From contig WLID01000001.1 in NCBI GenBank assembly GCA_009702325.1, positions 434,001 through 498,000 on the forward strand: a stretch of DNA of 64,000 bases. Direction: 5' to 3'. The position numbers and the translations under genes were made by a program. Position 1 is the stretch's first letter; each line of letters begins with the position of its first letter. The DNA is from Actinomycetota bacterium (lineage in GTDB: Bacteria > Actinomycetota > Thermoleophilia > Gaiellales > Gaiellaceae). Below the pieces are notes generated by a model. It worked only from the letters and a program-made list of their open reading frames with translations, was not told the DNA's origin and searched no databases. Of the stretch, positions 2,462 to 26,801 are shown in pieces.

Positions 2462-2855
2462 CGACGGCCTCGATCAGCCAGGCGGGGATGCGCGTGGGGC
2501 GCATCGTCTGCCTGTCGACCGTGCCGTGGAGCGTCCAGCCTTCAGACACCACCTCGCCGTCTCGCTCGATGGCGTATTCGAATCGGAACCGCGCACCTTT
2601 CATGTCGACGCATCTGGCGTGGATGGTGAGCGTTTCGTCGAATCGTGTTGGGCGGATGAACTTCGCCCACGATTCGAGGACGACTGCCTCGATGCCTTCG
2701 TCGCGGAGCCGCTGGTAGCCCCCGGCGTAGCGCGAGAGGTAGTCGACGCGCGCGACCTCAAACCAGATGAACGTGTTTGAGTTGTGTGCAACTCCTTGAG
2801 CGTCGGTTTCGGCGAACCGGACGCGCACGTCGGACGAAAAGGTGTAGCCGTTCAT
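2442..2855 (-). CDS. Acyl-CoA thioesterase, 4-hydroxybenzoyl-CoA/YbgC-FadM family
   Basis: A 137-residue hotdog-fold protein. RVRFAETDAQGVAHNSNTFIWFEVAR matches the YbgC/FadM active-site region (xYxDTDxxGhVyhxxYlxwfexaR), with the catalytic Asp at the D of ETDAQG. It should hydrolyse an acyl-CoA in the cytosol; chain preference cannot be read. Its ATG overlaps the stop of dinB by 4 nt (ATGA), so it is translationally coupled behind the polymerase. That pairing does not suggest a shared pathway. Confidence 0.88.
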   Translation of the reverse strand: MNGYTFSSDVRVRFAETDAQGVAHNSNTFIWFEVARVDYLSRYAGGYQRLRDEGIEAVVLESWAKFIRPTRFDETLTIHARCVDMKGARFRFEYAIERDGEVVSEGWTLHGTVDRQTMRPTRIPAWLIEAVATAESS

Positions 2856-3928
2856 TGGGGTGGAACGATAGAGGCAGTCTCGAGTGAGAGCTGCGCGTCA
2901 CCGGCGAGGCCAGAGACGCCGACACCGACGAGCCGTAGTGGCCCCGGACGGTCGAGTAGTGCGCGGTCAAGGAGGCTGCATGCGAGTTCCGCGATTCGTT
3001 CGGCGTCGTCGACCCCCACACGGAGGGAGCTTGAGCGTGTTCGGATCGTGAAGTCGGGGTAGCGGAGTTTGGTCGTGACGGTTCGGGCCGCTTGACCTCG
3101 GGAGCGGAGGTGTTCGGCGAGTTTGACGCTCATCCGACGGAGTTCGTCGTGGAGCTTCTCGGGGTCCCCGACATCGCGCGCAAACGTCTCTTCGTGCGAG
3201 ATCGAGATTCGTTCGGATGATGTTTCGAGTGGTCGCGGATCGATGCCTTGGGCCCGTTCGCGAAGGAGTGCGCCGACCTTGCCGGGAAGGAAGCGGCGGA
3301 GCGTGACGTCGTCTGTCGCTGCGAGCGCTCCGATCGTTTCGACTCCGGCGGCGATCAGCCGCTCTTCGGCGCGGGGACCGACTCCCGGAAGGATCCGGAT
3401 TGGGAGCGGCGCGAGGAACGCCGCTTCGTGGCCGGGCCTGACGGCGGTGAGTCCTCCGGGCTTCCGCCGGTCGGAGGCAATCTTCGCGACGACCTTGGAT
3501 GTCGCGACACCAAGGGAGCACGACAGGCGTGTGCGGGCGCGCACGACGGCACGGATCGCTTCGGCGAGCGCGCGCGCGTCGTCGAAGGATGGGGCGACCT
3601 CCCCGAGATCGAGGTAGCCCTCGTCGATTCCCGCCTGCTCGACGGTTGGAACCATCTCGTGCACGACCGACCAGACGGCTTGTGAGTACTCCCGATAGAC
3701 CGACATGCGTGAGGGGACGAAGACCACTTCGGGGCAACGTCGGAATGCCTCTGCGCACGACATTGCCGAGCGAATGCCAAAGCCGCGTGCCATGTAGTTC
3801 GCCGTTGCGACGACGCCGCGCCCCTTCGGGTCGCCACCTACCACGAGCGGCACGGTTGCAAGTTCGGGCCGTTCCAGCTCTTCGACGGCCGCGAAGAACG
3901 CGTCGAGGTCGAGGTGAGCGACGATCAT
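2852..3928 (-). CDS. dinB: DNA polymerase IV (Y-family translesion polymerase)
   Basis: 358 residues, the normal Pol IV length. IVAHLDLDAFFAAVEE at the N-terminus carries the first catalytic Asp. GIDEGYLDL holds the second acidic pair; the family consensus is SIDEAYLD, so Ser and Ala are replaced by Gly here. A helix-hairpin-helix thumb (ILPGVGPRAEERLIAAGV) and little-finger domain follow. No LexA box is obvious upstream. I chose the ATG at 3928 because the longer frame would add 26 non-conserved residues and a TACGCT -10 box sits 7 nt before this ATG. First gene of a dinB-thioesterase pair. Confidence 0.93.
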   Translation of the reverse strand: MIVAHLDLDAFFAAVEELERPELATVPLVVGGDPKGRGVVATANYMARGFGIRSAMSCAEAFRRCPEVVFVPSRMSVYREYSQAVWSVVHEMVPTVEQAGIDEGYLDLGEVAPSFDDARALAEAIRAVVRARTRLSCSLGVATSKVVAKIASDRRKPGGLTAVRPGHEAAFLAPLPIRILPGVGPRAEERLIAAGVETIGALAATDDVTLRRFLPGKVGALLRERAQGIDPRPLETSSERISISHEETFARDVGDPEKLHDELRRMSVKLAEHLRSRGQAARTVTTKLRYPDFTIRTRSSSLRVGVDDAERIAELACSLLDRALLDRPGPLRLVGVGVSGLAGDAQLSLETASIVPPQ

Positions 3929-17446: not shown

Positions 17447-18037
17447 ATGGAAATCGTGCCACTCCCCCGAGAAAAGCGGCCCGAAGCGGCCGCGGTCCTC
17501 GCGCGCGCGTTCCAACGCGATCCCGCCTGGCAATGGGTGCTGCCCGACGCACGCCGCCGTGCGGCAGTACTGCCATGGCTCTTCGCAAGCAGCTTCGATG
17601 TCACCGAAGCCGAACTCTGGACAACAGCAGGAACGATCCGCGGCCTCTCGCGCTGGATGCCGCCAGGCCGTCCTCCTGTGAAGCTCGGGCCCGCAATCCG
17701 TGCGCTCGTCATCACGCCGCTGCGGCTCCGCGATGCAACCCAACGCTTCTTCGCTTACGGTCGCGCAATCGATGATCTCCGCACCGACGCGGTGCCGATG
17801 CCGCACTGGTACCTCGCAGGTATCGGTGTCGAGCCGGGCGAACGTGGCCGCGGAATCGGCTCGGCCCTCATGCAGCCCGGTATCGACGCCGCCCAGATGG
17901 GAGGGCTGCCATGCGCGCTGCTGACAAACAATGAGCGAAACCTCAGCTTCTACCGCACTCACGGATTCGAGGTTGTGAAACAGACGCGAGCGACCCGAAC
18001 CGGACCTAAGGCGTGGGTCCTCGTCCGGAATCCGTAG
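17447..18037 (+). CDS. GNAT family N-acetyltransferase
   Basis: 196 residues. HWYLAGIGVEPGERGRGIGSALMQPG is the acetyl-CoA-binding motif A with the RGxGxG/A loop. LLTNNERNLSFYRTHGFEVV is the motif B N-x3-FY-x2-GF signature. The N-terminal half (FQRDPAWQWVLPDARRR) is of the type seen in actinobacterial puromycin-acetyltransferase-like GNATs. Substrate unknown. Its end lies 11 nt before the lysS start. Confidence 0.87.
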   Translation: MEIVPLPREKRPEAAAVLARAFQRDPAWQWVLPDARRRAAVLPWLFASSFDVTEAELWTTAGTIRGLSRWMPPGRPPVKLGPAIRALVITPLRLRDATQRFFAYGRAIDDLRTDAVPMPHWYLAGIGVEPGERGRGIGSALMQPGIDAAQMGGLPCALLTNNERNLSFYRTHGFEVVKQTRATRTGPKAWVLVRNP

Positions 18038-18048
18038 GCTTTCTGACC

Positions 18049-19422
18049 GTGACTGCCCCAAAGCGCTTCCCTGATCGCGACGAGATCGCCGCCGTACGCA
18101 TCGAGGCCGAAAGCCTCGAAGCTGGTGTCGAAGGCGCAACCGCCCGTCGCGTCGCAGGCCGTGTGCTTGGCCGTCGAGGCATGGGCAAGCTCGTGTTCCT
18201 CGACCTCGTTGATCGCTCAGGTCGCATCCAAATCATGTGCCCGGTCGAGCGAACCGGCGAGGTCAACTTGCACCTCGGAGACATCATCGGCGTCACCGGC
18301 AAGCCGACGAAGACGCGACGTGGCGAGCCATCGCTTGTCGCCGACGAGCTTGAGCTGCTCGCGCACATTCGGGCGCCGCTGCCCGACACGTTCCATGGAA
18401 TGACCGACGTTGAGCAGCGCTACCGGCGCCGCTACCTCGACCTCTTGATGAACGACGAGACACGCCACGACTTCCAAACACGTGCGCGGATGATTAGCGC
18501 TGTGCGCCGGGCGCTCGACGTCGACGGGTTCGTTGAAGTCGAGACGCCGATCTTGCAGCCTCGCTACGGCGGCGCCTTTGCACGCCCGTTCTCAACGCAC
18601 CACAACGAGCTCGACCAGACGCTCTATCTCCGAATTGCGACGGAGCTGTATCTCAAGCGGCTGATCGTCGGCGGTCTCGAACGGGTCTACGAGATCGGAA
18701 AAGACTTCCGCAACGAAGGCGTCTCCTACAAGCACAACCCGGAATTCACGATGCTCGAATGGTACGAGGCATACGCCGACTACCGCGACACGATGGCGCG
18801 TATGGAGTCGCTCGTCGCCCAGGTTGCCGAGGAGACCACCGGGTCAACCAAGGTGACCTTCCGTGGCAACAACATCGACCTCGCAAAGTGGGAACGGGTG
18901 AAGCTCGTCGACGCGCTCGACGCGCACGGACTTTGGACGAAGGACCCGATCGAGCTCCGCGCGAAGCTGAACGAGCGTGGCGTCGACACAACCCACGATC
19001 GAACCTGGGCGCAGCTGATCGATCACGCACTGTCGCACTACGTCGAGCCGGCGCTCCAGCAGCCGACGATTCTCCACGACTACCCCGTCGAGCTGTCACC
19101 GTTCGCGCGTTCTACCGACGCGGATCCCGCGATTGTCGAACGGTTTGAGTACTTCGTTGGGGGCATGGAATTGGGTAATGCCTTCACGGAGATCAACGAT
19201 TCCGTCGACCAAGAGTCGCGCTTCACAATGCAGGCCGATGAGGGTGCAGGCGGCAACGTCGAGGCTGAACCAGGCGACCCCGACTACGTCGAAGCGCTCT
19301 CGTACGGCATGCCGCCAACCGGGGGTCTCGGGATGGGGATGGATCGGCTCGCGATGGTGCTCCTTGGCAAGGAATCGATTCGCGACGTTGTCTTGTTCCC
19401 GGCACTTCGCGACCGGAACTAA
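18049..19422 (+). CDS. lysS: Lysyl-tRNA synthetase, class II
   Basis: 457 residues, slightly short of the usual 490-500 because the N-terminal extension is missing. The OB-fold anticodon domain holds GRRGMGKLVFLDLVDRSGRIQ. Motif 1 is near FVEVETPILQPRYGGAFARPF, motif 2 at FRNEGVSYKHNPEFTMLEWYEAY, and motif 3 at GGLGMGMDRLAMVL. It charges tRNA-Lys. GTG at 18049 is preferred over the GTG at 18013, which lies inside the GNAT gene. Located as in Bacillus between dus and clpC. Confidence 0.94.
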   Translation: MTAPKRFPDRDEIAAVRIEAESLEAGVEGATARRVAGRVLGRRGMGKLVFLDLVDRSGRIQIMCPVERTGEVNLHLGDIIGVTGKPTKTRRGEPSLVADELELLAHIRAPLPDTFHGMTDVEQRYRRRYLDLLMNDETRHDFQTRARMISAVRRALDVDGFVEVETPILQPRYGGAFARPFSTHHNELDQTLYLRIATELYLKRLIVGGLERVYEIGKDFRNEGVSYKHNPEFTMLEWYEAYADYRDTMARMESLVAQVAEETTGSTKVTFRGNNIDLAKWERVKLVDALDAHGLWTKDPIELRAKLNERGVDTTHDRTWAQLIDHALSHYVEPALQQPTILHDYPVELSPFARSTDADPAIVERFEYFVGGMELGNAFTEINDSVDQESRFTMQADEGAGGNVEAEPGDPDYVEALSYGMPPTGGLGMGMDRLAMVLLGKESIRDVVLFPALRDRN

Positions 19423-19498: not shown

Positions 19499-20716
19499 AT
19501 GACCGAGGGGCGAATCATCCGTTGGCGCCTGTTCATCCCGCTCGTCCTTGTAGGGGTCGCGGCCGGGATCGGTGGGGCGTACGGTTTCGGAAAGATCCAG
19601 ACGACGCTCTACGCGTCGCAGACCTCGCTTGTCGTTCAGCAGGGCAATCAGCCGCTTTCGGGTGGCCCGACTGCAACCGGGCTCGTGAGCACGATTCGCG
19701 ATCTCGTCCGCAGCGACATCGTTGCGTCGAATGTGATCCAAAACCTGCAGGTTCACGAATCGAGCACAACCTTCCTTCGGCGGGTGAGTGTGCACAACGC
19801 CACAGGGTCAGCTGTCATCACTCTCCGTGTGCTCGACGAAAGCTCGGCGCGGTCGAAGCAGATTGCGCAGGAGCTTGCCCTTGTCTTTACGCAGCTTGTA
19901 CGCGATCGCTTCGGGCAGTCGTCGTCGGCAACACAGACGCCGATCCAAGTTTCAGTTTTCGATCCTGCCCATACGATCGCCGGCAAGGCGCAGCCCAGGG
20001 TTAAGCGCGACCTCGCGTGGGGCGCATTGTTCGGTGTGTTGGCAGGTCTGCTTGTTGCGAACCTCGCCGCGGTGCGACGTCGCCCCGCCCGGTGGGTTGA
20101 GCGCCGCTCGACGACAACAGCACCACGCCGGAAAGGTCGACGCACCGAAGATGTCGCGGCAGCCGAAGCGGCAACCGTGGAAGCGCCGGAGTCCGTTGTT
20201 GCCCCTGAGGCGCTCATCCCTACCGCACCGGCAGTTGTGGCACCGCCCGCAATAGACGATTGGGGCTTGACGACCGACGCCGATCCCCAGCCGGCGCCGC
20301 ACCCCGCAGCAGCAGGTCTCGTGCTTGGTGAGGTCGGAAGCGCAGGAGGTTCCGCGCAGATCGCCGATTCGCTCATCCGCCAGGCAAAGATCGTCCCGTT
20401 CCAAACCGTGATGCTCGCGGGAGACCCTGATGGCGCCGTCACCGCCGGTATCGCGCACACCCTGGCGGAACGTGGCGAAATGACGATCTGGGTGCGGGCC
20501 GCCGACGCCGATCCCGCCGAGCTTGCGCGCCTCTCCGCACGCTGCTCGTTCGTGCTCGTCGCCGACCCGCGGTTTGACTCAGACCTTGCATCTTCCGTCG
20601 ATGCGATCATCGCTGTCACGGATGGCAACGGGACGCCCGGCCTCGACGAACTTGCGGCACGCACTGGCATTCGGATCTTGGGCTCGGTCGTCGCCCGCCC
20701 CGTCGGGAAGGTCTAG
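19499..20716 (+). CDS. Wzz-like chain-length/polysaccharide co-polymerase homologue with long linker and nucleotide-fold-like C-terminus
   Basis: 405 residues. TM1 is residues 10-30 (LFIPLVLVGVAAGIGGAYGF). The external domain of about 145 residues begins KIQTTLYASQTSLVVQQGN and ends with the FDPAHTIAGKAQPRVKRDLAWG segment that precedes TM2 in Wzz/YveK-type proteins (usually ..A.P..P..P). TM2 is LAWGALFGVLAGLLVANLAAV. A Pro/Ala-rich linker (210-280) leads to a 120-residue domain (IADSLIRQAKIVPFQTVMLAG; FVLVADPRFDSDLASSVDAIIAV; IRILGSVVARPVGKV). It is laid out like the end of a BY-kinase but has no Walker A or Tyr cluster. It abuts the coiled-coil gene downstream. Wzz family is probable; function is inferred. 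Confidence 0.72.
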   Translation: MTEGRIIRWRLFIPLVLVGVAAGIGGAYGFGKIQTTLYASQTSLVVQQGNQPLSGGPTATGLVSTIRDLVRSDIVASNVIQNLQVHESSTTFLRRVSVHNATGSAVITLRVLDESSARSKQIAQELALVFTQLVRDRFGQSSSATQTPIQVSVFDPAHTIAGKAQPRVKRDLAWGALFGVLAGLLVANLAAVRRRPARWVERRSTTTAPRRKGRRTEDVAAAEAATVEAPESVVAPEALIPTAPAVVAPPAIDDWGLTTDADPQPAPHPAAAGLVLGEVGSAGGSAQIADSLIRQAKIVPFQTVMLAGDPDGAVTAGIAHTLAERGEMTIWVRAADADPAELARLSARCSFVLVADPRFDSDLASSVDAIIAVTDGNGTPGLDELAARTGIRILGSVVARPVGKV

Positions 20717-21006
20717 CTACGCGCGGTCTTGCGGGAGCGACGGCGCTCATTGCGCTGGCCGCGGGGGCGGCAGGTGCTGCCGCCGCTGCTGGAACGCTGG
20801 TCCCAAACGATGTCGCTGCGGTCATCGCGCTCGCGCTTGCGGCGCTGATCGCTGCCACACGCGCTGAATTTGCGGCGGGCGTACCCGCCGCCGCGGCCCC
20901 ACTTGCCGTTGCCTGGCCGCACGCTGCGCCCGCGCTCGGTGCCGTTGCACTTGCCTCGGCGTTCATCCACACACGCACGCTGGTACGTCCCGCCCTACCG
21001 CTGCTC
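20717..21006 (+). other. Coding-like frame without start codon, upstream of the coiled-coil gene
   Basis: The frame of the next gene is open back through the preceding gene's stop. From 20713 it encodes a very hydrophobic, Ala-rich stretch (VAAVIALALAALIAATRAEF; APALGAVALASAF) like the membrane segments that follow. No in-frame ATG, GTG or TTG occurs before 21007. The ATT at 20749, 11 nt after GGGAG, is one possible rare start; a sequence error near 20.7 kb is another. Confidence 0.55.
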
Positions 21007-23973
21007 GTGGGCCTCGTCTTTGCAGGCTGGATCGCCTATGCCGGTGACGGTGGCCTTGTGCGGGGTGCAGCGGCCTGCATCGCGATCGCGGGAGCCGCAA
21101 CGCTCTCGGTGCGCTCCGAACGCGACATGCGAATGGCGGCGCGCGCGTTCGGCGCATCTGCTGCCGTTGTGGGCATCGTCGCCGGAGTCGTTGGAACAAC
21201 CGGGGTGCGCGCCGACCTCATCGCGGTCGCAGCTGCCGCCGGGCTGGCGGCAGCATCCGGCTCCGGTCTGCGCTGGATTGCGGCTGCGGATCTGGCAGCA
21301 ATTCTTGTGTTGCCTTCGCCTGCTGGGCTTGTTGCGGCGGGTGTTGCGATCGCGGCGTTGATCGCCGTTGAGACGTTGACCGTTGCTGACGGGGCGGCTG
21401 CGGCTGTTGCGGCAGGCCTTGCTTGGGTGCTGGGAGCGCCGATCTCGACGGGCACGCTGCCGCACGGTCTCTGGACGGCTGTGAGCGGTTATGCCGACAC
21501 CTACCACCGGCTGGGTGTCGCGGGACTCGTCTTGTTTGCGCTGCTCCTCTGCGCGATTGCGATCACCTCGCCGCGCCGTCAGGTGCCTGCGGTGCTGGCT
21601 GTTGCTGCGGGGGCCACGCTCGTGCCGCTTGAGGCAACCGCCCCGCTGTGGTTGCTTGCCGGGCTCGCGGCGCCAATCCGTCGTGCAACCTCGTCGTACG
21701 GGGTTGCGTCAACGGCAGTCGATGAAGGCTGGCTGCGGGATCTCGAAGGCGACCTTCGTGATCTTGAGGATGAGATTGAGGCGAAGCGCCGCGGGCTCCA
21801 AGCCGAGGAGGATCGTTTGCGCCGGCGCCGCGAGGCGCTCGATCAGCGTGAACAGGAGCTTGCTCATCGGGAACGCGGCGCCATCGAAGTTCGCACACCC
21901 CAGACACCGCCGCCGCCTCGCGGTGAGGATCCGGAGGAACAGGAACGTCGGCGAAAGCTGCGTGAGCGGGAGGAAGAGGTCGAAGCACGGCTTGCGGCGC
22001 TCGACGACGGAACCCGGAGCTTCGATGTCCGCACACGCGAACTTGATGCACGGCTGCGAGCCGTTGACAGCTCGGCACGGGCGCTTGAGGAGCGCGAGCG
22101 TGTGCTCAACGATCGCGAGCTTGGGCAAGACATCAAGGAACGGAAATTCCACGACACGATCGACGATCTCGAACGGCGTGTCGCAGAGCGTCAGGCCGCA
22201 CTGGAAGGGCGCGAGCGGGCGCTCGAACAGCATGAGCGCGCAATCAGCGATGCGCTTGATATCCGGGAGCGAACACTCACCGATCGCGAGAACGCCATCG
22301 GTTCACGCCTCGAGGAAGGGTTCAACGAGGCATATGCGGCGCAGGAGGCCGAGGTCAAGGCGCGTGCCCGCGATCTCGACGAGCGTGAGAGGCTCGACAC
22401 CGAGCGCCGCCGTCGCTTCGACGATGCGCTGAACGAACGCGAGGCGGTCGTTGCAGCACGGGAGCGTGAGAGCGAGTTGCGGGAGCGCGAGCTCGTCGGA
22501 CGCCTTGCTGAGTTGGAGGTACGCGAGGCCGACTTCACCGAGCGTGAGAGTGCTCTGCGGGAGCGCGAGAACGGCCTTGACGCGACGCTGCGTGAGCGCT
22601 CGAAGAACCTCGACGAGCTGGAACGGACGATCGCCGAACGTGAGCGAGCCCAAGACGAGCACATGCGGTCGCTCGAGGCAGCTGTGGCTGAGCGCGAGCG
22701 GATTCTTGAGAAGCGCGAGAAGTGGGTGGGGCAGAAGCTTGAGGAGCGCGAGCGGGCGGTGATGGAGCGCGAGCGCATCAGCCGCACCTCGTTGACCGAA
22801 CGCGACGCGACCTTCGCTGAGCGTGAACGGCTGTTGAACGAACGTGAAGCAGCGTTCGAGGAGCGTCAGGCGTCCATTGCCGAGCGCGAGGCGGCGATCG
22901 AGACACGCGCCGGGCACCTCGACGAGCGCGACGCCGCACTCGCGGAGCGTGCGAAGGCAGCTGAGGATCTCAGCGGGGCGATGGTCGAGCGCGAAACCGC
23001 GCTGGAGCAGCGGGCGATTGAATTTGAGGCTCGTGCACGGGCGGTGGCCGAGCGTGCTGCGGCGAACGATGCGCAGGGCGCTGTGCTTGCGGAGCGAGCG
23101 CTTGCGCTCGACATGCGCGCCCGCGACCTCGAGGATCGGGAGCGAAACGCCGAGACAGGCCAGAGCGACCTGCAGTCGACGTCGGCAGCGCTCGCCGAGC
23201 GGGAACGCTCACTTGAGCAGCGTGAACGGGCGCTTGAGGAGCGCCTCACGGCGATCGCTTCGCGCGATGAGGTGATCGCGGTGCGTGAGGCGGCGATCCG
23301 TGATGAGGTCGCTGCGGTGCAAGCCCGCGAGGCCCTGTTCGTCGAGCGCGAGCGTGTGCTGGAGCAGCGCGAATCCCAGATTGCCGCAGCCGCGCTGCTT
23401 GTGCCGGGCGACGATTCCGAGCTGATGCATCGCGCGCGTGCGCTTGAGGATCGGGAAGCGGCGCTGGCCTCGCGCGAGCGCGGTTTGAACGAGCGTGAGC
23501 GAGTGCTTGCCCGGCGCGAGCAGCGCGTCGCGCCCGCCCCGAGCCGGGCCGAACGTGCCGTCGAGAGCGAGCCAGCGGCAGGTGCGAGCTCGGCGTCGAC
23601 GCCGCCGTCTGAGCCGCGCCCAATTCGTCGTTTCGATGCACCGGTGTTCCAGCTCGCGGGTGACGATGAGGACAAGCCCACGATTCGGCGCGCTCGCCCT
23701 GTTGAGCGCGAGCTGTCAGCAGCGCAGGTGCCCGACGCTCCGAGCGAGCAGGTTGAGCCCCTCGCCGAGATTGCGGCACCATCTGCTGCGGTACCCGCAG
23801 GCAGCGAAGCGCCAGCTGAATCCCTCGAGGCCCCGGTGGCACCTGTGGAAGCCGCGGCACCTGTCGAAGCGGCCTCAGTCGTTGAGGCGCCTGCGCCAAC
23901 GGTCGTGGCGCCCACTGCCGCGGAGGCCCCCTGCAGGCAAGGGGCCTCGCCCTCTCGGGCCGTTGCAGCCTGA
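21007..23973 (+). CDS. Multi-pass membrane domain (Wzy/O-antigen-ligase-like) fused to a ~600-residue coiled coil
   Basis: 988 residues as read from GTG 21007; the true N-terminus is probably about 85-98 residues longer. Residues 1-230 are a run of transmembrane helices. HGLWTAVSGYADTYHRLGVAGLVLFALLL resembles the HNxYLxxxxExGxxGLxLF loop-helix of Wzy/WaaL proteins. From about 237 to 840 a near-perfect heptad array of the type LEQRERALEERL forms a charged coiled coil of about 600 residues (about 90 nm at 0.15 nm per residue). A Pro/Ala/Glu-rich linker follows. The frame ends at 23973, but a conserved-looking end continues in the next frame. Sits 3' of the Wzz-like gene. No known named family recognised. 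Confidence 0.75.
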   Translation: MGLVFAGWIAYAGDGGLVRGAAACIAIAGAATLSVRSERDMRMAARAFGASAAVVGIVAGVVGTTGVRADLIAVAAAAGLAAASGSGLRWIAAADLAAILVLPSPAGLVAAGVAIAALIAVETLTVADGAAAAVAAGLAWVLGAPISTGTLPHGLWTAVSGYADTYHRLGVAGLVLFALLLCAIAITSPRRQVPAVLAVAAGATLVPLEATAPLWLLAGLAAPIRRATSSYGVASTAVDEGWLRDLEGDLRDLEDEIEAKRRGLQAEEDRLRRRREALDQREQELAHRERGAIEVRTPQTPPPPRGEDPEEQERRRKLREREEEVEARLAALDDGTRSFDVRTRELDARLRAVDSSARALEERERVLNDRELGQDIKERKFHDTIDDLERRVAERQAALEGRERALEQHERAISDALDIRERTLTDRENAIGSRLEEGFNEAYAAQEAEVKARARDLDERERLDTERRRRFDDALNEREAVVAARERESELRERELVGRLAELEVREADFTERESALRERENGLDATLRERSKNLDELERTIAERERAQDEHMRSLEAAVAERERILEKREKWVGQKLEERERAVMERERISRTSLTERDATFAERERLLNEREAAFEERQASIAEREAAIETRAGHLDERDAALAERAKAAEDLSGAMVERETALEQRAIEFEARARAVAERAAANDAQGAVLAERALALDMRARDLEDRERNAETGQSDLQSTSAALAERERSLEQRERALEERLTAIASRDEVIAVREAAIRDEVAAVQAREALFVERERVLEQRESQIAAAALLVPGDDSELMHRARALEDREAALASRERGLNERERVLARREQRVAPAPSRAERAVESEPAAGASSASTPPSEPRPIRRFDAPVFQLAGDDEDKPTIRRARPVERELSAAQVPDAPSEQVEPLAEIAAPSAAVPAGSEAPAESLEAPVAPVEAAAPVEAASVVEAPAPTVVAPTAAEAPCRQGASPSRAVAA

Positions 23974-24169
23974 GCCGCGCCACTGGGATCTCAAGGTGCT
24001 CACGTGGCTTGTCGAAGATGCGGCCGACGAGCACCCGACGCGCATTGAAGAGTGGCGCAGCTACCTCGACCTGCTGAATTCGCATGCCGAGAACGGGATC
24101 GTTCTTCCTGCGTTCGACGAACTCATCTGGGACGTGTTCCGGCCGATCGTCGATCCGCAGGAAAGCTGA
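23942..24169 (+). CDS. Displaced C-terminal segment of the coiled-coil protein (shifted frame)
   Basis: In the frame one base on, the sequence reads KGPRPLGPLQPEPRHWDLKV, then a compact helical domain with LTWLVEDAADEHPTRIEEWR and ENGIVLPAFDELIWDVFRPI, ending at TGA 24167-24169. It has no plausible start of its own. Removing one C from the five-C run at 23928-23932 would join it to the upstream protein, so it is most likely that protein's real C-terminus. Confidence 0.6.
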   Translation, partial: GPRPLGPLQPEPRHWDLKVLTWLVEDAADEHPTRIEEWRSYLDLLNSHAENGIVLPAFDELIWDVFRPIVDPQES

Positions 24170-24290: not shown

Positions 24291-26801
24291 GTGTTCGAAC
24301 GGTTTACGGAACGAGCTCGCCAGGTCGTCGTTCTTGCTCAGGACGAGGCCCGTGCGCTCAAGCACAACTACATCGGTACTGAGCACATCCTGCTCGGCCT
24401 CCTGCGTGAAGAGGAAGGCCTTGCCGCACGCGTTCTCGAGTCGCTCGATATTACGGTCGAAGAGGTGCGCGCCCAGGTTGCGCGCATCGTCGGCCAGGGC
24501 GATGAGGTGACCACGGGTCAGATCCCGTTCACACCGCGCGCGAAGAAGGTGCTCGAGCTTGCTCTGCGCGAGGCTCTGTCGTTGGGCCACAACTACATTG
24601 GCACCGAGCACATTCTCCTGGGTCTCGTGCGTGAGAACGAGGGTGTCGCTGCTCGGATCCTGCTCGATTTCGACGCCGATGCCGAGAAGATCCGCAACGA
24701 GATCATCCGCATGCTTTCCGGCCCTGGCCGCCGTGGGCAGGCCCAGGCTGGGCCTCCTGGCGAGAAGTCGAAGAGCTCGAAGCTGCTCGATCAGTTCGGC
24801 CGCAACCTGACGAAGCTCGCCGCTGAAGGCAAGCTCGATCCGGTCGTTGGGCGTCAGAACGAGATCGAGCGCGTGATGCAGATCCTGTCGCGCCGCACGA
24901 AGAACAACCCTGTGCTGATCGGCGAGCCGGGTGTCGGCAAGACCGCCGTTGTTGAGGGTCTCGCCTCGCGCATCTCTGCAAATCAGGTGCCCGACATCCT
25001 CAAGAACAAGCAGATCTACACCCTTGATCTCGCAGCCCTTGTTGCCGGCTCGAAGTACCGCGGTGAGTTCGAGGAGCGTCTCAAGAAGGTGATGAAGGAG
25101 ATCACCCAGCGGGGCGACATCATCCTGTTCATCGACGAGCTCCACAACCTCGTGGGTGCGGGTGCGGCAGAGGGTGCGATCGACGCTGCATCGATCCTCA
25201 AGCCGGCGCTTGCCCGCGGCGAGCTTCAGACCATTGGCGCGACGACGCTCGACGAGTACCGCAAGTACCTCGAGCGCGATGCAGCGCTCGAGCGTCGCTT
25301 CCAGCAGATTCGTGTCGAGGAGCCGTCAACCGAAGACACGGTGCAGATCTTGCGTGGCCTCCGCGACCGTTACGAAGCCCACCATCGGTGCAAGATCACC
25401 GATGAGGCGCTCGAAGCTGCCGCCACGCTTGCCGACCGTTACATCCAGGATCGGCAGCTGCCCGACAAGGCGATCGATCTGATCGACGAAGCGGCGTCAC
25501 GCATGCGGATCAGGACGATGTCCGCGCCGCCGCGTCACCGCGAGCTCGACGAGGAGATCGAGCGCGTCCGCACCGACAAGGAAGACGCGATCGAGAACCA
25601 GGAGTTCGAGGTGGCAGCGTCGTTGCGCGATAAGGAGCGGAAGCTCAGCGCGAAGAAGAAGGAGCTTGAAGAGGAGTGGCGCAGCCAGGAGACGGTTGAG
25701 CAGCCCGAGATCGGGGAGGAAGAGATCGCCGACATCGTTTCGATGTGGACGGGCATCCCGGTCTTCAAGCTCACCGAGGCTGAGTCGCAGAAGCTGATGC
25801 GCATGGAGGAGGAACTCCACAAGCGTGTGATTGGCCAGGACGCCGCGATCGTTGCGGTCTCGAAGGCGATCCGTCGTGCCCGTGCCGGGATCAAGGATCC
25901 GAAGCGGCCAACCGGCTCGTTCATCTTCCTTGGCCCGTCGGGTGTCGGCAAGACCGAGCTCGCGCGCACGCTTGCGCAGTTCCTGTTCGGTGACGACGAG
26001 GCAATGATCCAGCTCGACATGTCGGAGTACATGGAGAAGCACGCTGTGTCGAGGCTCGTTGGTTCGCCGCCTGGGTACGTCGGGTATGACGAAGGCGGTC
26101 AGTTGACTGAGGCAGTTCGTCGTCGGCCGTACTCCGTGCTGCTCTTTGACGAGATCGAGAAGGCCCACCCTGACGTCTTCAACATCCTGCTCCAGATCCT
26201 GGAGGATGGAAAGCTGACCGACTCGCAGGGACGCAAGGTCGACTTCCGCAACGTGATCGTGATCATGACCTCGAACATCGGTTCGGCGTCGATCTCGAAG
26301 AACGTCGCGCTCGGCTTCAACATGAGCGACGAGCAGGGCCTGTCGTACGACGATATGAAGACCCGCGTGATGGGCGACCTCAAGCGCGTCTTCCGTCCTG
26401 AGCTCCTCAACCGGATCGACGAGATCATCGTCTTCCCGAAGTTGTCGAAGGAAGAGATCCTCCAGATCGTCGACCTGATGCTGAACCGGCTGCGCGTGCA
26501 GATGGTCGAGCATGGCGTCACGATCGAGCTCTCCGATGAGGCGAAGGAGATGCTGGTCGACAAGGGTTACGACCCGGCGATGGGTGCCCGGCCGTTGCGC
26601 CGTGCGATCCAGCGTCTGATCGAGGATCCGCTCGCTGACTTTGTCCTTGGGCGTAGCCTCGAGCCGGGTTCGACGATCATCGTCACGCGTAAGAACGACG
26701 ACGAGGTTGATATCGAGGTTGTGCCTCCGCCCGCTCCGGAGCTTGTTGCCGCTGCGGCTGACGCTGAGCCCGACGCTCCGGCTGAAGTCGACGCCGAGTA
26801 G
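24291..26801 (+). CDS. clpC: ClpC-type AAA+ unfoldase
   Basis: 836 residues. Two Clp-N repeats (each with [15 protein letters not shown] or the [14 protein letters not shown] variant) come first. AAA-1 has Walker A GEPGVGKT, followed by the UVR-motif linker ([21 protein letters not shown]). AAA-2 has Walker A GPSGVGKT and Walker [25 protein letters not shown] sits where the ClpP-contact loop region lies. It unfolds substrates for ClpP. GTG at 24291 gives the canonical [17 protein letters not shown] start. No CtsR or HAIR inverted repeat is visible upstream; a TACGAT box lies at 24230. CtsR, McsA and McsB, which flank clpC in Bacillus, are absent. Confidence 0.96.

Follow-up and report, generated by a model that had tools for sequence, protein, structure and literature searches.

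The window analysed here, a 64,000-nucleotide stretch (G000:C1:434001-498000) of a 1.91 Mb genome in 13 contigs, carries two genes between lysS and clpC, an arrangement predicted from the sequence alone and confirmed by the coordinates (Table 1). Gene 1 encodes a Wzz-type protein. Gene 2 encodes a hydrophobic bundle that continues into a long coiled coil, a linker and a compact C-terminal domain, referred to here as the EEW domain. As had also been predicted, no glycosyltransferase lies beside the locus, nor does any other sugar gene.

Table 1. Features of the locus, in window positions unless another contig or locus is named
Feature	Position	Strand	Remark
lysS	18013..19422	+	left flank of locus
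Gene 1, Wzz-type polysaccharide co-polymerase, 405 aa	19499..20716	+	
Gene 1 C-terminal part, shortened BY-kinase/ParA-like region without Walker A	20279..20713	+	
Gene 2 TM bundle (~9 hydrophobic segments), degenerate Wzy/O-antigen-ligase homologue	20713..21675	+	no ATG/GTG/TTG in frame before 21007
Gene 2 loop SGYADTYHRLGVAGLVLF, at the position of the Wzy HNxYLxxLxELGxxGLxLF loop; H, N, E lost	21484..21537	+	hhalign and orthologue alignment A7
Gene 2 coiled coil, ~606 residues, ERE/RER heptads	21676..23532	+	
Gene 2 Pro/Ala-rich linker, coil to C-domain	23533..23965	+	
CCCCC run, frame changes +1 relative to relatives	23927..23931	+	
Gene 2 C-terminal three-helix domain (EEW domain), +1 frame, including stop codon	23966..24169	+	alignments A5, A8
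clpC	24291..26801	+	right flank of locus
Lone ClpC N-terminal-domain matches in other genomes	G029:C22:29675-30109; G003:C164:2352-2789; G044:C1:1291431-1291967; L111:1543-1821; L119:7447-7863		

The original prediction holds in large part, but the window does not carry gene 2 as a single open frame. The coil's own frame stops at 23973, and the predicted compact C-terminal domain, which is present and ends at 24169, lies in the +1 frame and not in that of the coil. In the near relatives G088, G053, G089 and G046 (loci L104, L071, L105 and L107) coil and C-terminal domain share a single frame, so the frame change belongs to the window copy or to its sequencing. It can be placed at the run of five C and amounts either to a single added base or to a fault of assembly. 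A programmed frameshift was considered and rejected, since the relatives have no frame change at that place. For its first 98 codons (20713-21007) gene 2 contains no in-frame ATG, GTG or TTG, so the true start, near 20713, either uses a non-standard codon or is masked by a further error in the sequence; in G089 an ATG directly follows the gene 1 stop codon.

Comparison of gene 2 in the window and in G088 gave dN/dS values of 0.061 for the bundle, 0.096 for the coil and 0.13 for the C-terminal domain read in its shifted frame, with dS between 0.9 and 1.5. Such low ratios indicate that gene 2 is maintained despite the loss of its signature residues, which is described below. They also bear on the possibility that the pair is the decaying remnant of a lost capsule locus, a reading that would account for the one-base frame change at 23927-23931, for the lack of a standard start before codon 99 in the window and for the loss of catalytic motifs from both proteins. 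We regard it as very improbable, as dN/dS stays within 0.06-0.13 in all three regions, also past the frame change, and the frames are continuous in the four relatives named above.

Relationship of the two genes to Wzz and Wzy

Hydropathy places two transmembrane segments in gene 1, at aa 6-25 (~19514-19573) and aa 171-193 (~20009-20077), with 145 residues between them and a Pro ahead of the second (GKAQPRVKR), in agreement with the topology and motif first read from the sequence. Gene 1 scores 14.8 bits against Pfam Wzz (E 0.036; cut-off 25.5) and matches NCBIfam TIGR01006, the CspC-type chain length determinant, over aa 15-187 with an E of 2.7e-14, below the full-length cut-off. At the profile level, three orthologues of gene 1 aligned with eight Wzz/BY-kinase proteins of the same loci at a probability of 99.9 and an E of 1.4e-32 (hhalign).

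A MAFFT alignment matches the end of gene 1 to the BY-kinase domain, PFQTVMLAGDPDG....AVTAGIAHTLAERG standing against PIRTILVTSAAPNQGKTTVTANLAVAIARSG. Taken separately, this tail matched the kinase profile with an hhalign probability of 8 and an E of 0.004, and judging from the alignments it is likely of kinase origin. The Walker A loop reads NQGKTT in G015 and G021 and is deleted in the window (alignment A9); G032 is an intermediate, in which the kinase domain has its full length and the loop reads SSGSAL. Gene 1 thus shares with the Wzz/Wzc/CpsCD proteins (PCP-2, PF02706, TIGR01006) the two transmembrane segments around an extracytoplasmic domain, the Pro before the second of these, a tail at the BY-kinase position and an adjacent Wzy-type gene. 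It differs from them in a Pfam score under the cut-off and in the absence of the Walker A motif of the BY-kinases (CpsD/Wzc), such that no kinase activity is expected. The window genome has no Wzz match at E<=0.001, a threshold that gene 1 also misses, and it encodes six ordinary Wzy_C proteins and two initiating transferases, all away from the pair. As a lead, gene 1 could be a co-polymerase for those six proteins.

The bundle of gene 2 comprises ~9 hydrophobic segments between aa 5 and 309 by hydropathy, and Pfam Wzy_C matches neither it nor its nearest relatives. When six orthologous bundles (alignment A7) were compared with nine Wzy/O-antigen-ligase proteins of related loci, hhalign returned a probability of 94.8 and an E of 5.1e-8 in a colinear alignment of 307 columns, this nine-sequence Wzy profile alone giving a decisive match. 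A three-sequence profile reached a probability of 3.9, the six orthologues against three Wzy proteins 15.6, and the controls 0.18-1.3 (flippase profile) and 1.0 (reversed query). Among the polytopic proteins of these loci, Wzy-type proteins take most of the top ranks, with single-sequence E values of 0.01-0.3; BLASTP of gene 2 against one Wzy, sequence against sequence, gave nothing usable. The AlphaFold model of the bundle is poor (pLDDT 48.7) and has no Foldseek match with E<=0.001.

The gene 2 loop had been likened to that of O-antigen polymerases and ligases. In position the likeness stands, because GYADTYHRLGVAGLVLF aligns on the Wzy loop HNxYLxxLxELGxxGLxLF (hhalign). In content it does not, as the H, N and E are absent and the window reads SGYADTYHRLG in place of the catalytic histidine loop HNxYL....E.G. 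The histidine of this loop is presumably equivalent to those implicated in catalysis by WaaL and PglS. His338 of WaaL is the proposed catalytic base (PMC10449877), and in the related enzyme PglS the H324A variant served as an inactivated control (PMC12800693). With Wzy and WaaL (PF04932, GT-C fold), gene 2 shares a colinear profile match over its whole bundle and, with the intact Wzy of related genomes, its place after Wzz. It differs in having no Pfam match, in the loss of HN and Glu, in a shorter bundle and in the added coil and C-terminal domain.

It is also conceivable that gene 2 has kept polymerase or ligase activity, with catalytic residues that have moved or another residue in place of the His, and that coil and EEW domain only position the enzyme. 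For Asp in place of His there is a precedent, since Asp262 of RodA stands where WaaL has His338 (PMC10449877), and an Asp next to the loop, D262, is invariant in all six orthologues, the shared residue number being a coincidence; that the bundle is under strong purifying selection (dN/dS 0.061) also speaks for this reading. Against this, the loop varies among orthologues, with G046 and G032 lacking the HRLG..GLVLF segment, the region before it is much shorter than in Wzy in the profile alignment, and neither a glycosyltransferase nor a flippase adjoins the window locus. We therefore consider an active enzyme unlikely. The absence of catalytic residues from both proteins (Walker A in one, HN...E in the other) makes it more likely, as far as motifs can tell, that the pair is a non-catalytic derivative than that gene 2 is a working polymerase with a tail.

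The lysS-clpC interval in related genomes

A search for lysS and clpC covered 61 genomes of the family. In those with the two genes on a single contig, the distance between them ranges from 0.1 kb (G019, G031) to 39 kb (G049). When the interval is short, it often contains a single gene that, judged from its sequence, is NDP-sugar epimerase-like; long intervals hold Wzz/BY-kinase, Wzy, glycosyltransferase-like and polysaccharide-deacetylase-like genes and an initiating sugar transferase. Across the family, the lysS-clpC gap is a polysaccharide locus. Intact pairs are present in other genera: within the gap, G021 and G022 have a complete Wzz/kinase gene with a complete Wzy gene immediately after it, and G015 has such an intact pair upstream of clpC.

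The closest counterpart of the window pair is found on a short contig of G011, where a Wzz/BY-kinase gene precedes a protein (L115:1473-3272) made of an intact Wzy (Wzy_C E 8e-21), a coil and an EEW domain. This protein shares with gene 2 the domain order, the EEW domain and the Wzz/kinase gene directly upstream; unlike gene 2, it has an intact Wzy_C domain, an intact kinase beside it and a coil of ~60 residues. The window pair shows this order in reduced form. Homologues in which the two genes never co-occur, an outcome that the original prediction named as counting against it, were not found: lysS, gene 1 and gene 2 follow one another in G089 (complete, to clpC), G040 and G032. Together, the profile comparisons and the gene order in relatives support Wzz and Wzy ancestry and the link to polysaccharide that had been suggested.

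Two further observations concern this interval. The G089 contig carries, on the minus strand, lysS, gene 1 (442 aa), an intact gene 2 (~760 aa) and the start of clpC (L105:3917-5299, 2510-3838 and 225-2507). In several genera, lone matches to the ClpC N-terminal domain lie just upstream of lysS, separate from the full clpC downstream (Table 1).

The coiled coil and the EEW domain

The coil of gene 2 spans aa 322-940, of which 606 residues pass the composition criterion, corresponding to ~87 heptads (about 85 had been predicted). Its period is 7.0, with a spectral power of 20.2, whereas the highest value among 2000 shuffles was 11.9 (p<=0.0005). The coil also hit RNase_Y_N, FlbB, SMC and XopZ, and these matches were taken as coil artefacts. 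Neighbouring species differ in the coil by insertions of 25 and ~45 residues, and its length is ~40-670 residues across relatives and ~70-670 among orthologues within the genus, the shortest of the latter being cut by a contig end. An origin by tandem repetition is weakly visible in the DNA, as two short 21-base arrays.

Positive charges flank the membrane segments of both proteins: RIIRWR before TM1 and VRRRPARWVERR after TM2 of gene 1, and SPRRQ before and PIRRA after the last hairpin of gene 2. By the positive-inside rule both C-termini, and with them the coil and C-terminal domain of gene 2, would be cytoplasmic, and the occurrence of the C-terminal domain on soluble HTH proteins without transmembrane segments agrees with this side. 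We infer that coil and C-terminal domain most likely lie in the cytoplasm. Of the three roles first suggested for the coil, that of a ruler fits poorly, since a cytoplasmic coil could not measure a polymer outside the cell; the coil may instead serve as a tether or scaffold.

The EEW domain has ~62 residues and the pattern W..L..L...V......P.R.EEW..YL..LR..a..dG..P..FD.L..evF..L. The window domain fits models A5 (E 1.9e-25; 21 rows, the window row among them) and A1 (E 2.8e-28; likewise including the window). AlphaFold2 predicts three helices (pLDDT 86.1, pTM 0.72), and searches of Pfam, PDB sequences and PDB folds gave no match above chance, nor did PHROGs give any. Within the family the domain is present in 53 of 103 genomes, spread over 16 of 34 genera; when 399 genomes from across the class were sampled, two outside the family had it, one of them marginally. 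A genus-level alignment searched against a genome collection matched two uncultured actinobacteria, Kiruna_bin-03445 and AM_0849. By our own count, at least 23 genomes have an EEW-domain gene on one contig with lysS or clpC.

The domain is C-terminal on Wzz-like, Wzy, Wzy-Ig-coil and HTH proteins, the last including one with ~900 coil residues, and it also caps Ig-like proteins that adjoin initiating transferases and glycosyltransferases. It further ends a small two-TM protein downstream of aspS. That no named family has the Wzy-coil fusion was right within the libraries and literature covered, the literature search having found no description of it; the fusion is not unique, though, and its EEW domain is a recurrent, family-wide module.

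Several EEW-bearing proteins lie away from the pair. On contig C6 of the window genome, at ~64.2 kb, a gene between aspS and an mnmA-like gene (L106:6166-6954, minus strand) encodes two TM-like segments, a linker and the EEW domain. Many genomes of the family have an EEW-domain gene of ~180-320 aa close to a match for a class II tRNA synthetase. Together with the lysS locus, these aspS-side genes make two loci beside class II synthetases that carry the domain. A Wzy-Ig-coil-EEW protein with >800 coil-like residues (L108:7213-10827, minus strand) adjoins flippase-, glycosyltransferase- and polysaccharide-deacetylase-like genes. Two proteins of >800 aa (L109:1332-4736 and L110:6865-9360, both minus strand) consist of coil and EEW domain without transmembrane segments; both adjoin a metallo-beta-lactamase-fold-like gene, and the first starts with an XRE-type HTH. 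A link from DNA to a scaffold is possible for these two.

DivIVA, Scy and FilP are actinobacterial coiled-coil scaffolds. By analogy, gene 2 resembles them as a membrane-linked cytoplasmic coil with a possible part in placing envelope synthesis, and it differs in being anchored by a polytopic, Wzy-like bundle. The pair could have taken on a role in cell division or polar growth, its coil acting as a membrane-bound cytoskeletal element of the DivIVA/Scy kind and its polysaccharide link gone. The long coils with EEW domains on proteins without transmembrane segments, HTH-coil-C proteins included, and the lack of adjacent sugar genes at the window locus would suit such a role. In most relatives, however, the EEW domain of the lysS-clpC interval either belongs to a Wzz- or Wzy-type protein or has initiating transferases and glycosyltransferases as neighbours, and a fixed filament role would not predict a coil that varies from ~40 to ~670 residues. 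To us this role seems improbable.

A proposed role for the pair

Based on ancestry, gene order, motif loss, purifying selection and the sharing of the EEW domain, we propose that a Wzz-Wzy pair has been reduced and given a new task in the polysaccharide slot, where it would form a non-catalytic membrane complex whose cytoplasmic arm places polymer assembly; we give this proposal an even chance. Gene 1 would act as a co-polymerase in the membrane, its appended kinase having decayed, and gene 2 would supply a polymerase-type bundle without catalytic signature, carrying the cytoplasmic coil and a lineage-specific three-helix docking domain. The co-polymerase and the pseudo-Wzy would sit in the membrane as a non-catalytic complex, from which the coil would multimerise and extend into the cytoplasm. 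There the EEW domain would bind a partner common to the other EEW-bearing Wzz-, Wzy-, Ig- and HTH-proteins, and via that partner the assembly of envelope polymers might be gathered or placed at one site.

A broader and more tentative idea, which we hold to be somewhat doubtful, is that the EEW domain, as a docking module particular to this lineage and borne on coils of variable length, gathers co-polymerases, polymerases, pseudo-polymerases and HTH proteins at one cytoplasmic hub, the pseudo-Wzy serving as membrane anchor. The parts of the locus have known parents; within the libraries and literature searched, three things are new: how they are combined, the disappearance of both catalytic signatures from genes under selection, and the EEW domain that other proteins share.

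The pair is a case in which a membrane protein of polymerase type, though without its catalytic signature, is kept under purifying selection beside a co-polymerase that has lost its kinase. It also brings to light an undescribed domain that, in one bacterial family, is carried by both co-polymerases and polymerases. According to a 2025 review, it has yet to be established whether PCP-2 proteins make contact with Wzy (PMC12220298). A domain common to both protein types offers a handle on how the machines of polymer assembly hold together.
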